From contig CAXKVR010000939.1 of assembly GCA_964058845.1 (NCBI GenBank), forward strand, positions 1-64,000: a stretch of DNA of 64,000 nucleotides, given 5' to 3'. Of the stretch, positions 38,901-45,142 are shown in pieces (position 1 is the stretch's first letter; each line of letters begins with the position of its first letter). A model generated the notes under the pieces. That model was not told where the DNA came from. It saw only the letters and a list, made by a program, of their open reading frames with translations, and made no database searches. This DNA comes from Carex sylvatica. Lineage: Eukaryota; Streptophyta; Magnoliopsida; Poales; Cyperaceae. Both the position numbers and the translations under genes were made by a program.

Positions 38901-40375
38901 TTAATTCTCCGGTCCCCAAATAATATTTGACAACTTTGGGCAGTTCTCTATTTTAAATTTAATATTTGGCAACTTAGGACAGTTGGAAATATATATTTGT
39001 TCGAGTTTGGGAATCTCATTTTCAAGGAATAAACTCCTAAGAGATCTAAAATTTAACAATTTTAGATGCTCCAGAGATGGAAACCCTCCAGGCATAGACA
39101 TCGTATCCACGGGTAAATTGCCAATTAGGAGATTCTTGAGACATGGCAACTTCTTCAAATGAGGGAGAAAGTTGAAATTGTTACAGTTAGAGATTTGAAT
39201 TGTCTCTAGCTTCCGAAAAGCTCGATCACCCATCCATTCCGGAAAGATGTTACCTGGATAGTTTACAATCCATAGACACCTAAGTCCGTGGTGCGGTTCC
39301 AGAGATTTGATTACATCTTCACTTTGTTGCTGAAGCAGTTGATCATTGAGCACCGAACTCTGCCACCTCAGCATTAGCTTTTCAATAAGCTTTCCTTTCA
39401 AGTTTGCGTATATGGCTTGCCCTGTTGCCACCTTCTCTAAGTTCAGTATGCAAAGATCCCCTCTAAGATTCAATTTATTTAACTCACTAATGTTGCACGG
39501 ACCATTGGCAGAGGTCACATTGAACCTAGAGATTGTTTGAAGTTGTTCCAGATCATCAAATCCTTGCGGCAGTGCCACTTCAGTTGAATCGGTTATCACC
39601 TCCCAATCAAGATGCAAGTCTAGATGCCGCAAGTTCATCAACCGGCGCAACCCTTGTGGTAATTTTTCAAGCTTCAAACATCCCTTAAGCTCGAGGGTTT
39701 GAAGATTGAAGAGGTCACAAATATTCTCAGGTAGGGTTGTAATTTGAGTATTTGAAAGACCAAGGTACCTCAGGTGAATTAATTCACCGACCGAATCTGG
39801 TACCAGTTGGAGATCACTGTTGCTCATATCTAGAACCCGTAAACGCATAAACTTAGGGAAAAAGGGTGCTTGTATGGAACTCAACAACCCCACCACTTCA
39901 TTCAGTTCATGACAGAATTTCAAGGTTCTCAAGTTTGAGTAAGGCTCTAAGCACTCTAGTTTCACGGTATTTGTATTCTTTGGTTGCAAAAAAGAAGCAT
40001 AGCGGGCCTGATCCGAGTTACCATGATTACCCTTAGGTAGAGGTTTACCAGACTCGAAGCTGCGAAATTCATATTTGGAAACCTCCATTGCTAGATCGAG
40101 CATCAGGCTTGGCATTCTGTACCTCTCTACCTGACGGGAAAAGAGCTTGGAATTCTGACCTTCAGTGCCTATAGTTATTTTCTCAAAGAATGACCTCCAT
40201 ATCAGCTCATCAAAGTACTTGGTACCAACTGATTCTAGCCGGCGATTCCCATCTGCTTCAATCAGCCCTTCTGCTATCCAATATCTAATCACCTGATCCC
40301 TCTCAAACACATAACCATTAGGAAATATCGAGCAGTAAGCAAAGCATTTTTTCAGGTGATACTTTAAGTCATGGT

Positions 40376-40722
40376 TGTTGAATATTGATACAAAATTAGA
40401 ATATGAATATTTCAGATTTAGAGATCTGGATGCAACGTGTTGTGATGTATTTTTAGGCATGTAGTTGAGTTAGTGGGTTCTATAATTAGTCATGTAGGTT
40501 TTGTTTGTAATAGCAGGATACGTGGGGAATAATTCTATTTTGGGGATAGCTTGTAATATGAGGATAGGTAGTGGGGTGCTAAATTTAGATGTTCTAGATT
40601 TAGATTAATGTTTAGCTATAAATTGAGATGTACTTTGTATCCGAATTAAGGAAGCAATAGAAGTTAAATTTCAGCAGCAAATTTGTTCTCTCTATTGTTG
40701 TATCCTTCAGAAATTTCCAACA
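40376..40722 (+). repeat. 5' LTR
   Basis: Starts TGTTGAATATTG and ends TTTCCAACA. A TATA-like CTATAAATT is at 40616-40624, so transcription probably starts shortly after. Confidence 0.93.
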
Positions 40723-40725
40723 AAT

Positions 40726-40737
40726 TGGTATCAGAGC
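40726..40737 (+). other. Primer-binding site
   Basis: TGGTATCAGAGC, the standard plant copia site complementary to the 3' end of initiator tRNA-Met, four bases from the 5' LTR. Confidence 0.93.
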
Positions 40738-40767
40738 CAAAGGTTTGAGATCAGGGCAGATCCTACC

Positions 40768-42909
40768 ATGGCAGAGAACATGAGCATTTCGAATCCATCG
40801 ATTCCATTGTTCAAGGGAGACAACTATGAGTTCTGGAGCATCAAGATACGAACTTTGCTCAAGTCGCAAGGTCTATGGGAATTGGTGGAGACGGGAGCAC
40901 CAGGCATAGATCCCACACCAGCAGAAACAGCGAAGCGAGATGCGAAGGCGCTGTTCTTCATTCAACAAGCCGTTGTTGACACGGTGTTCACAAAAATCGC
41001 AGCAGCGGCATCAGCAAAGGATGCATGGACAACCCTGAAAACTGCATTCCAGGGAAATTCGAAAGTTCGCGAGATAAGGCTACAAGGCTTGAGAAGAGAG
41101 TTTGAGACGTTGGACATGAATCAAGGTGAATCTGTTCAAACATTTCTCACAAGAGTCACATCCACCGTCAACCAAATCAAGAGTTGTGGTGAAGATATCA
41201 CAGAAAAGATTGTGGTTATGAAGGTCCTCCGCAGCCTTACAACAAAATTCGACCATGTCGTGGCAGCAATCGAAGAGTCCAAGGACCTGTCCACATACTC
41301 TTTCGACGAGTTGATGGGATCACTGCAGGTCCATGAAGTTCATCTCAACCGATCAGATGTGAAGGACGACACCAAAGCTTTCTATACCAAGGGCGATTCC
41401 TCAAGAAGCCAACAGCAAGGCAGAGGTATAGGCCAAGGTAACAGCAGAGGTCGTGGAAGAGACACGAGCAGCAGATACAACCATCAACAACAACAAACAA
41501 CAAAGAAGGATATTGAGTGCTACTATTGCCACAAGTTCGGTCACATCAAGGCAGATTGCTACAAGAAGAAGAGGGAAGACGAACAAGGCAAGCAAGGCGT
41601 TGAATGCCACTATTGTCACAGAATTGGCCATGTGCAGGCTGATTGCTACAAGAAGAAGCGTGAGGAAGAGCAAGCCAATGTTGTAGAGGAAAATGAGCAA
41701 CCATCACTCTTCATGGCACACACCGAAAGCAAGATTGATGCAAGCAACAAGAGCACAGTAGGAGTGCATATAAAAGAAAATGGTGGCAGCAGTCCAGGAA
41801 ATGGCAAAATCATGGTGAGTAGAAATATTTTGTTTGATGAAAAAGCCCTCAAGGTGGAGAATCTAGGGCTCAATCGTCAGAGGTCGTTGAAACTGGTGTA
41901 TAACCATGATATACGGCTGGCTCAAATGCCAGAAAAATGTAGTTTCAAGGTGTTGAGAGATATTGTGACAAAGATTTTTCCTTCATTAAAATCTGTGCTG
42001 ATCAAGTACAAGGATTATGATGGGGATCTGGTTACCATTACTGATACACAAGTGCTGAGGGTGGCAGAATCATGTTTCGACCAGCCTGTACAGATGGAGG
42101 CAGAGAAAGAAGAAAAGAGACTTTCCTTGATGAGACTACATATTGTAGAAGTCAATCCTGAGGAAGAGCCTACAATCACGGAGGAGGAAGATCATGTAGT
42201 CGAAGAAGAAGAAGAGCCCATAGAAGAAAAGATAGGTGAGGGAGATGAAAAAGAAGAGTTTACAAAAGGAAGGAATATTGATAAGAAGAGAGAAGTAAGA
42301 ATTCCAGCACTAGATGGTAGTGGATTGACTCCAAACCTGTTAACCCAAGAAGAGGTAATCATGGAAAGAGGAGGTGACATGCCAAGTCAAGTGTCTGATT
42401 CCTTTGGAAATGAAAGAGGTTTTCTGGAGATGAAAAGTATTAAGGGAGATATTTTGAAAAAGGTGATCACAGATGATACTGTTATCAAGCAAGAGAAGAT
42501 AATTGTCAAGGTTGGTGAAAGTTCAAAGCAAACAACTGTGGCGTTGTCAGCCTCTGAGGCAGAATATTCAGCAGTCAGTTCAGCGACTTGTCAAGCAGTT
42601 TCGTTGAGGCATATACTTGTTGATTTTGAGCAGGAACAGCAACAGACTATAGTGATATTCTGTGACAACCAATCAGCAATAGCAATGGCGCAAAATCCAG
42701 AAGTTCATGAAAGGACCAAGCATATTGACATAAGTGTTCATCTCATTCGTGACCTTGTGACAAATGGTGACTTTGAGATCAGATATGTCAATTCAGACAA
42801 GCAGGTAGCAGACGTGCTTACGAAGGCATTGGCACGAAGCAAATTTGAACAATTTCGATCGGCACATGGAGTTGGCAATTTTGTATCAAGGGGGAGTGTT
42901 GAATATTGA
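40768..42909 (+). CDS. Gag-PB1-RNase H chimeric protein (713 residues)
   Basis: Residues about 10-240 are copia Gag (DUF4219/UBN2; FKGDNYEFWS near the start). Two CCHC zinc knuckles start at C251 and C280 (CYYCHKFGHIKADC, CHYCHRIGHVQADC), a tandem duplicate. Residues about 373-468 are a PB1 domain: SLKLVYNHDIRLAQMP, then FPSLKSVLIKYKD, DYDGDLVTITD, and HIVEVNPEEEP. This matches my knowledge of the C-terminal PB1 of plant TPR-PB1 (Phox1-4/CLMP1) proteins; the acidic D/E-rich stretch after it fits the same origin. From about 588 the copia RNase H C-terminal part returns (SASEAEY, CDNQSAIAM, ADVLTKAL); its first catalytic Asp region is missing, so nuclease activity is doubtful. Protease, integrase and RT are replaced by the capture. 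The frame is open throughout, and the stop lies just inside the 3' LTR. Confidence 0.92.
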   Translation: MAENMSISNPSIPLFKGDNYEFWSIKIRTLLKSQGLWELVETGAPGIDPTPAETAKRDAKALFFIQQAVVDTVFTKIAAAASAKDAWTTLKTAFQGNSKVREIRLQGLRREFETLDMNQGESVQTFLTRVTSTVNQIKSCGEDITEKIVVMKVLRSLTTKFDHVVAAIEESKDLSTYSFDELMGSLQVHEVHLNRSDVKDDTKAFYTKGDSSRSQQQGRGIGQGNSRGRGRDTSSRYNHQQQQTTKKDIECYYCHKFGHIKADCYKKKREDEQGKQGVECHYCHRIGHVQADCYKKKREEEQANVVEENEQPSLFMAHTESKIDASNKSTVGVHIKENGGSSPGNGKIMVSRNILFDEKALKVENLGLNRQRSLKLVYNHDIRLAQMPEKCSFKVLRDIVTKIFPSLKSVLIKYKDYDGDLVTITDTQVLRVAESCFDQPVQMEAEKEEKRLSLMRLHIVEVNPEEEPTITEEEDHVVEEEEEPIEEKIGEGDEKEEFTKGRNIDKKREVRIPALDGSGLTPNLLTQEEVIMERGGDMPSQVSDSFGNERGFLEMKSIKGDILKKVITDDTVIKQEKIIVKVGESSKQTTVALSASEAEYSAVSSATCQAVSLRHILVDFEQEQQQTIVIFCDNQSAIAMAQNPEVHERTKHIDISVHLIRDLVTNGDFEIRYVNSDKQVADVLTKALARSKFEQFRSAHGVGNFVSRGSVEY
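42888..42896 (+). other. Polypurine tract
   Basis: Purine run containing AAGGGGGAG directly before the 3' LTR, the usual plus-strand primer. Confidence 0.88.
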
Positions 42910-43243
42910 TACAAAATTAGAATATGAATATTTCAGATTTAGAGATCTGGATGCAACGTGTTGTGATGTATTTTTAGGCATGTAGTTGAGTTAGTGGGTT
43001 CTATAATTAGTCATGTAGGTTTTGTTTGTAATAGCAGGATACGTGGGGAATAATTCTATTTTGGGGATAGCTTGTAATATGAGGATAGGTAGTGGGGTGC
43101 TAAATTTAGATGTTCTAGATTTAGATTAATGTTTAGCTATAAATTGAGATGTACTTTGTATCCGAATTAAGGAAGCAATAGAAGTTAAATTTCAGCAGCA
43201 AATTTGTTCTCTCTATTGTTGTATCCTTCAGAAATTTCCAACA
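42897..43243 (+). repeat. 3' LTR
   Basis: Same length as the 5' LTR (347 bp) with no visible difference; followed by the ATGGT target copy. Confidence 0.93.
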
Positions 43244-45142
43244 ATGGTAGCTTATTTTCAAGCTAGCATGAACAGCCCCATTAATATCATCTTTGAGGGG
43301 TCGCATATCGCTCAGCACATCAGACCACTCTTCATCACTTCTCCCATATAATACTGCCCCTAGAGCCTTGGCTGCCATGGGAGATCCATAGCACCTTCTC
43401 GCAATTTCTTTCCCAATCTCCAATTTCTCATGATCATCATTGATGCTACCTTGTGGGAGAGCAAGGGACTGGATTAACTCCCAGCATTCTTCCTCACCTA
43501 GACCTTTTAAGCTGGGTCGTTCTATTACTCCTGGCAAATTATGGCAGGTTTTTTCATTGCGTGTTGTGATTAGAAACTTGCTTCCATCTCCCCCGGCAAG
43601 CAAAAGGACTCGCAGCATATCCCCAAAATGCAAATCAGTGGCCCAAACATTATCAATTACTAACAAGAACTTATTGTTGCCTTCACGTGCCGCTAGATAC
43701 TCCCTAAATGGGAATGAAAATTTGGTCAATAAGGAAATCATTAATATTGGGTGTAGTGTTATACATTTTTTTTTTTTTTTTATGTTATGGCTCATATGAG
43801 GCTACAAGTAATAAATTAAGCCTTGGGTGAGTGTTGATGAGTGTTGGCACTGACCAGCTAATGGATATGGATCATCGTTCTTAAACTCAGAATTGGAATT
43901 AGAATCAAATATTTGATCATCAAATCGGAATCGGATGAATCGGCTGAAATTGGCTAAAATTTGTTTTGTACTAAAATAATAGAAAAAAAAAATAGTAGAA
44001 CATTAATTTGTTAAAAAATAAAGGTGCTGAAAAATAAAAATAATTTGCTAGATACTTGCAGAACCAGAAGTTCAGAACCTTGTTTTGATAACAGTAATGA
44101 CATGCCTGACTGACATTTTTGGATCATTCTATTTATAAACCAAGTTTGGACATTGTTTCTCTTTTTTTTTTTGTTAATTTAATTTGGACAATTGAAACTT
44201 ATTATTACTTTTAATTTGTTGAATTCCTAAACACGCAAATCGCTGCCCGTTGTTTAATATTTCGTAAAAAAAAATATATATAAAATATATATATTAGAAT
44301 AGAGGATATATATACCTAAGTCTCTCCTGCAGCCTGCCAAAGTCGCCAGAATCACCCCTTTGCCCAGTCATCTTTTCATAGATCTCCTTCATGGCAGTGC
44401 TCACATCACACCTTTCTGTCAAACACACCCATGCCTTGATATTAAAACAATTTAATCTCGGATCAGCATAGACCTTTTGAGCAAGCGTGGTTTTCCCAAT
44501 CCCAGCTGCACCATGAATAGGAACAACAGTAATTGTTTTCCTCGAAGCACGTGCTAATGTCTGACCGGTTATCAACAAGTCCACAACTTCAATTTTATCA
44601 TTTTCTCGGTCGATCATGCTTGCCCGGTCATGATATGGGCCAGTTTGGCAAGGTCGGGAACGCTGATGAGAGAACCCCCTCCTTTCCCCATCCTCCCCAT
44701 TCAGCCTCAGATTCTTTCGATTCTTCAGAATCTCTTCATACCTATTGTCAATTTTATTAATCTCAGATGCAAACTTGCTGCGCTGAAACAGGCCCCATTC
44801 GGGGCTTATGGATGGGAGCTCGAACCGATTCCTCTTCCTCTTACGTGAGGCCTCTACCTTGTGCACGTTGATGGCTGTCTGGTACTCGTCAAGGAGGTCG
44901 TCTGTGTCAAACGACACCGACTTGAGATCGCTGAGCCAATCCATGACTGACTTATCCTCGATGTAGCGCCGCTCTTCGGCATCGGTTAGGAGGGAGTTGA
45001 TGCGATCTGATGTGCGTCTAAGCCGCCCGAGCTCTTCTTCTACCTTCCAGTAGCGGGTCACCTCACTCTCAAGTTTATTTACTACCTTCTCTGCCAGGCC
45101 CGGAGCAGACGTGATTTTTACAAGCCAGTTCATGGTCAACAC

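Follow-up and report, generated by a model that had tools for sequence, protein, structure and literature searches.

A non-autonomous copia-type element of Carex sylvatica with a PB1 domain and a second host-gene segment in its Gag frame

The maize element Bs1 is small, lacks pol and is present at low copy number. It is an LTR element in which gag is fused to fragments of three host genes (PMC8616336, PMC7264820) and, as far as the accessible parts of these papers describe it, it is the closest known plan to the sedge element reported here, which likewise joins several host fragments to gag within a single frame. The donors are different, however, and the sedge cassette occurs in 18 copies in 64 Mb, on four LTR types and in a second species. 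In structural class, the sedge element is close to the TR-GAGs, defined in the accessible text of PMC6022998 as non-autonomous elements that have LTRs with Gag only (or Gag and protease) and no reverse transcriptase (RT). It is also non-autonomous, with LTRs, Gag as the only retroelement domain recognized by Pfam and no RT, but its Gag frame additionally holds host-derived PB1 and Plant Mobile Domain (PMD) segments and a remnant of RNase H. Orchid Gypsy elements show that an LTR element can fix a host-like domain and retain it over many copies: they carry an AlkB demethylase domain (25 kb, separate ORF, active in vitro; accessible part of PMC9289625). A survey of 121 genomes with RT as the marker found frequent extra domains in Gypsy elements only (same source and part). 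Whereas the orchid elements are Gypsy with a separate ORF, the sedge element is of the copia type and lacks the RT used as the survey marker, which suggests that RT-based surveys would overlook such elements.

A mobile element also appears to have acquired PB1 in the case of MUSTANG-B (MUG7/MUG8), in which the domain is thought to have been taken up by the MULE lineage (PMC8616336, in the part accessible); in contrast to the sedge element, this is a DNA transposon lineage that has become a host gene and encodes PB1 in a short exon at the 5′ end. The TPR-PB1 proteins CLMP1 and PHOX represent the donor type of the sedge PB1 and its acidic tail, although the sedge element is without the TPR. In maize, at least 189 captures were counted in 425 elements, none having fragments of two genes according to the available portion of the survey (PMC2774510), and LTR-captured genes have also been counted in rice and sorghum (PMC3726574, available portion). 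In the literature that we searched, which covered few subscription papers, no description of a copia family with a Gag–PB1–RNase H architecture was found; this fits the statement in a preliminary description of the locus that none was known, although Bs1 follows the same general plan. Because the sedge fusion itself has proliferated, switched LTR partners and occurs in a second species, it offers many natural copies for study, with which one can ask whether captured host domains benefit retroelements and by what route captured cassettes spread.

Structure and insertion site of the element

Within the window (the whole 64,000-nucleotide stretch of Carex sylvatica DNA that was analysed), positions 40371–43248 hold a complete, recently inserted, non-autonomous Ty1/copia-type element, target duplications included; all of its features given below lie on the forward strand. 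The element is enclosed by the target site duplication (TSD) ATGGT (40371–40375 and 43244–43248) and by two identical 347-bp LTRs (TGTTGAA...CCAACA; 40376–40722 and 42897–43243), and has a primer binding site (PBS) TTGGTATCAGAGCC (40725–40738), which we take to be of the tRNA-Met type, and a polypurine tract (PPT) AAGGGGGAG (42888–42896). Paired LTRs, TG...CA ends, PBS, PPT and TSD, the marks of an LTR retrotransposon, are thus all present, and the identical LTRs with ATGGT on both sides bear out the recent activity proposed in the preliminary description. The element interrupts an NLR host gene on the reverse strand (38901–43795), separating its NB-ARC domain (E = 4.6e-18) from the winged helix (E = 8.8e-21) and the LRR (E = 4.3e-36). 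When one duplication is removed, the NLR flanks fuse into a single 674-codon open stretch, indicating that the insertion is young. A relative with gag, an integrase core and a shortened pol (L061/L062, C233:276080–279457) has an LTR whose 3′ half (160 bases) is identical to that of the window LTR; it adjoins NB-ARC/LRR coding sequence, and the window copy likewise sits in an NLR gene.

A single open frame of 713 amino acids (40768–42909) runs through Gag, zinc knuckles, PB1, a tail and an RNase H remnant to a stop codon just within the 3′ LTR. As described previously, this frame is uninterrupted and holds Gag with two knuckles: Gag is of the copia type (40768–41487; Retrotran_gag_2, E = 1.3e-32), and the CCHC knuckles, recognized by eye, lie at 41518–41559 and 41605–41646. 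The superfamily is indicated by the copia-type Gag profile, the window element being without pol; the related C744 has, by eye, the PR–IN–RT–RH order that is characteristic of copia pol. Both knuckles fall within a 79-nt direct repeat (76% alike, spacing 87 nt). One other copy (L012) is without 87 nt at this repeat and is expected to have a single knuckle.

At the 5′ junction (41755–41838), a protease hairpin (TVGVHIKENG) is followed by an integrase C-terminal motif (KIMVSRNILFDE), both assigned by eye against L063 and L062, and 41802–41846 matches DNA of C267, which also has gag and RNase H matches, at 87%. The entire protease–integrase–RT part had been thought to be swapped out; most of pol has indeed been replaced, but these short protease and integrase remnants are left. 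At the other end, the frame continues into an RNase H remnant (42511–42887) that begins 3′ of the first catalytic Asp. This 132-aa piece has no Pfam match at E 0.01, and we identify it as a remnant from its DNA, which matches six other genomic places with 70–71% identity across 384 bases; three of these lie 3.1–3.2 kb from a matching gag, and one, C744, can be read as RNase H. In the RNase H of C744, GYSDSDWAG (L063) precedes SSKKQATVALSSSEAEY; the window RNase H opens, by eye, at SSKQTTVALSASEAEY, past GYSDSDWAG, and thus lacks the first catalytic Asp. The catalytic set of RNase H consists of four acids (DEDD), and with the first Asp absent from the window frame the four acids of an active enzyme are not complete. 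The copia RNase H reported earlier is therefore present in frame, but is incomplete.

Two captured host segments

The first captured segment (41839–42267) comprises PB1 (Pfam stretch 41881–42141) and the acidic tail of a CLMP1/PHOX TPR-PB1 gene. Profile search confirms the PB1 domain recognized in the preliminary description (PF00564, E = 1.4e-11, 44.6 bits versus a cut-off of 23.6), and the Phox/CLMP1 type of donor suggested there agrees with 81% identity to Carex littledalei CLMP1 over 113 aa; a six-frame search carries the CLMP1 match on to 42267. Protein search with the middle region gave 229 matches, the best 120 of which were examined. The best match was a Carex rostrata Gag–PB1 protein (P0001, 663 aa), followed by CLMP1/PHOX-type TPR-PB1 proteins from sedges and other plants; among the 120 matches listed, a Gag domain was found only in P0001. 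By sequence, the best match of PB1 in the PDB was the PB1 of MAP2K5 (E = 0.13). PB1 domains have a ubiquitin-like fold; in the predicted model (mean pLDDT 57.7, 70–79 in the core blocks), strands and helices follow one another as E-H-E-E-H-E, the last helix being short. Foldseek searches with this low-to-medium-confidence model, which serves as support only, returned PB1 domains as the best matches (best E = 5.1e-3, none ≤1e-3).

Two-faced PB1 domains are marked by a basic Lys in strand 1 and an acidic (OPCA) motif. The window retains both the β1 lysine (LKLVY) and DxDGD, and the lysine is also kept by each of the 17 other copies in this genome, in line with the earlier description of a two-faced domain. 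Other donor residues have been lost, however, and that description applies only in part: valine replaces the later acidic E of the donor TQEL throughout, in the window as well as in the 17 further copies aligned from this genome and the C. rostrata protein, and in these element copies the arginine of the donor KRF has become I, S or M. The window and C. rostrata elements have the same Gag–PB1 junction and are 90–91% identical in the PB1 segment versus 71% in Gag. At 9 of 111 columns, both are unlike all nine CLMP1-type sequences compared, and at these columns, among other changes, the D that follows KLVY is replaced by N, KRF by KIF or KMF and TQEL by TQVL. Given these shared changes, the Gag–PB1 fusion most likely arose once before the two lineages split (or passed between them).

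The second captured segment (42310–42507) derives from a Plant Mobile Domain (PF10536) gene, specifically from the part encoding the C-terminal region. It is 69% identical over 68 aa to C. rostrata P0122, in which the PMD is recognized at E = 5.1e-100, and 58% identical over 72 aa to P0123 (from a metagenome contig), the matching part of the PMD proteins being C-terminal to the PMD itself. The tail had been assigned as a whole to the PB1 donor; this applies up to 42267, whereas 42310–42507 comes from a different gene, and there have thus been at least two captures. The C. rostrata element has a longer piece of the PMD gene (77% over 127 aa), and its gene model is without RNase H. The PMD proteins MAIL1 and MAIN take part in silencing (PMC5418596, accessible part). 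Another C. rostrata protein, P0121, named cysteine-rich receptor-like kinase 44, has the same PMD-derived tail first (97% identical to P0001 over 119 aa) and then the kinase; it is either an annotated element–host chimera or a gene-model error.

Donor genes in the element's own genome, as envisaged in the preliminary description, did not come to light in the 64 Mb (part of the genome) searched: neither the PB1 donor (queries: PB1-tail DNA, its protein and CLMP1, P0002) nor the PMD donor (query: the PMD protein P0122) was found, and only element copies or fragments were returned for the captured parts. Distant PMD matches in the genome reached 28–34 bits (45 of 225 candidates scored). Three places with PB1 (C312, C36 and C646) were rejected as the donor, as they were absent from the matches to the captured segment at the protein level. 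A PB1 gene of this genome (L003) shares 91% identity with C. littledalei and 96% with a further source, which marks the genome as Carex-like but distinct from C. littledalei.

Copies, relatives and exchange of the cassette

A 712-base DNA query of the PB1 region located 24 places in 64 Mb, 18 of which (window included) span at least 606 query bases at 89–100% identity, six being shorter; the element is thus multi-copy, in answer to the search for other copies proposed in the preliminary description. The 17 other long places entered the frame survey, and the short places (L027–L032) were excluded from it, L027 being the second half of the C807 copy. Exact 5-bp TSDs were found in 13 of the 18 copies (the window, L011, L012, L014–L019, L021, L022, L025 and L026), that of L022 on the basis of a motif search. 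Of the remaining five, L023 shows a single mismatch in its duplication, L010 is incomplete at the 5′ end, and no LTR pair was found inside the locus for L013, L020 and L024. Segmental duplication as the source of all copies is argued against by the differing TSDs. The LTRs of a pair differ by 0–9 bases in 14 of 15 paired copies and by 18 in L022 (gap columns uncounted). LTRs are dated with a rate of 1.3e-8, at which the insertions are 0–1.0 My old, and that of L022 2.7 My. A strict test found Gag and PB1 in a single open frame in 9 of 18 copies, including RNase H in seven of 18; L012 fails this test, yet has no stop before codon 690 in the frame survey and would be the tenth. Indels common to several copies in place and size are multiples of three; frameshifts are private, as are some in-frame indels. 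One of the copies with another LTR type (L016, G000:C939:93559–94268) is a second copy of the cassette on the same contig, ~50 kb off and outside the window.

Candidate full-length relatives (C100, C114 and C744) have gag and RNase H matches that are 3.1–3.2 kb apart. C744, the one of the three that was read, has its gag, protease, integrase, RT and RNase H spread over four ORFs and has 314-bp LTRs, which resemble the window LTR in the last 78 bases only (76–77%). No full-length element with the U3 of the window LTR was found in the 64 Mb (part of the genome).

The 3′ part of RNase H together with U3 was compared in 16 of the 18 copies (all except L013 and L024), and four types were distinguished. 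Ten copies have the window type (96–99% identical to each other); compared with this type, L012, L014 and L018 are 70–74% identical, L016 and L026 48–52% and L022 79–81%. L023 and L025, which have the window type, and L026, which has the third type, lack 42 bp of the acidic tail; this deletion is absent from third-type L016 and from the remaining window-type copies. All four combinations of deletion and 3′-end type are therefore represented, as recombination yields (repeated deletion would too). Synonymous divergence is 0.056 in the CLMP1 segment, 0.035 in the PMD part, 0.119 in RNase H and 0.177 in Gag, as if a young single cassette lay inside older, more varied frames.

In the C807 copy (L024/L027, C807:23903–28224), which measures 4.3 kb between the outer LTR ends, an antisense PDS5 fragment (PF20168, 5.8e-51) is bordered on either side by a copy of part of the PB1 region. 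PDS5 has its role in sister chromatid cohesion, and the fragment is a third host capture in the family.

Selection and the role of the captured sequence

Estimates of dN/dS were made with 14 copies (L018, L020, L022 and L024 were excluded for broken or partial alignments), and, the pairs not being independent, the intervals are optimistic: 0.28 (0.21–0.37) for Gag, 0.40 (0.20–0.85; bootstrap interval 0.20–0.93) for PB1, 0.86 (0.36–4.61) for the PMD part and 0.42 (0.22–0.82) for the RNase H start (42511–42720 only, as the wider RNase H region includes copies whose 3′ half is of a different type). When the set is restricted to the 8 copies that lack early stops, the interval for PB1 is 0.24–1.13 and includes 1. 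In Gag, both shared variants (N25:S39, p = 1e-8 versus the neutral expectation) and singletons (N45:S42, p = 2e-5) depart from neutrality. The PB1 variants do not differ significantly from neutral (shared N10:S8, p = 0.11; singletons N17:S7, p = 0.82), and those of the PMD part are N7:S2 (shared) and N10:S3 (singletons); no Fisher test of shared versus singleton variants reaches 0.05. Judged from these patterns, Gag is clearly under purifying selection among copies and PB1 only weakly so, and the PMD segment looks neutral. The Ka/Ks comparison of PB1 between copies that was proposed earlier thus gives a ratio below 1 in 14 copies, but with a variant test that is not significant.

We interpret the locus, with a probability of about 0.85, as a Bs1-like gene-transducing, non-autonomous copia-type element that depends on full-length copia relatives for its movement in trans. 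Most of pol would have been replaced by the two host-gene segments via strand switching during reverse transcription in the particle. The resulting passenger element retains its own LTRs, PBS, PPT and Gag with knuckles; RT and integrase would be supplied by related full-length copia elements of the same genome. If translated, the frame would give a Gag–PB1 fusion, with PB1 in the place that Pol has in Gag–Pol, and PB1 would thereby be carried into the particle. Gag is kept by selection and PB1 would most likely be a tolerated in-frame extension, of weak benefit at most, and the captured cassette would have passed between LTR lineages by recombination. Weighing against this reading, the 64 Mb (part of the genome) yielded neither a full-length element with the window U3 nor a donor gene, C744 is itself broken up into four ORFs, and half of the 18 copies do not pass the strict frame test.

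Whether the host sequence is pure filler that restores packaging length, its frame open by chance or through hitch-hiking with Gag, is in our estimate an even bet: a PMD part that looks neutral and a C807 copy with antisense PDS5 in the same region are consistent with filler, but the frame is open through PB1 in half of the 18 copies, the shared indels keep the frame and the upper limit for PB1 dN/dS in the 14-copy set is below 1. We are more doubtful that PB1 is functional, such that Gag–PB1 polymerises or pairs with host PB1 proteins, alters particle assembly or localisation and has been selected for it. The loss of the donor R and E in all aligned element copies, the non-significant variant tests and the 8-copy interval count against such a function, and the low divergence of PB1 may reflect the youth of the cassette (dS 0.066 versus 0.177 in Gag); the junction shared with C. 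rostrata, the higher identity there of PB1 than of Gag, the β1 Lys in all aligned copies, the 14-copy dN/dS, shared indels in multiples of three and the presence of the cassette on four LTR types point towards it. It seems unlikely that a copia element uses an acquired polymerising domain to the extent that Gag–PB1 co-assembles by head-to-tail PB1 contacts or docks on host PB1s, with the advantage having carried the cassette into multiple LTR lineages and into two or more Carex-type sedges. A host gene lying between repeats by chance, or a one-off chimera, is refuted by the counts of copies and TSDs (LTRs, PBS and PPT are present, and 13 of 18 copies have their own TSD), even though NCBI gene models annotate the C. 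rostrata counterpart as a gene; the single locus and lost mobility of a domesticated host gene are likewise not seen in this multi-copy element with TSDs.

Rearranged or shortened relatives were also observed. At L020/L031 (C373:15000–18716), an inverted RNase H–LTR piece lies between Gag and PB1, and the end of Gag is present twice. The match figures of C510:2613–5173 and C194:87165–88093 are the same: each contig shows a shortened relative that has bases 8–195 only of the PB1 region, and the two may be one locus assembled twice.
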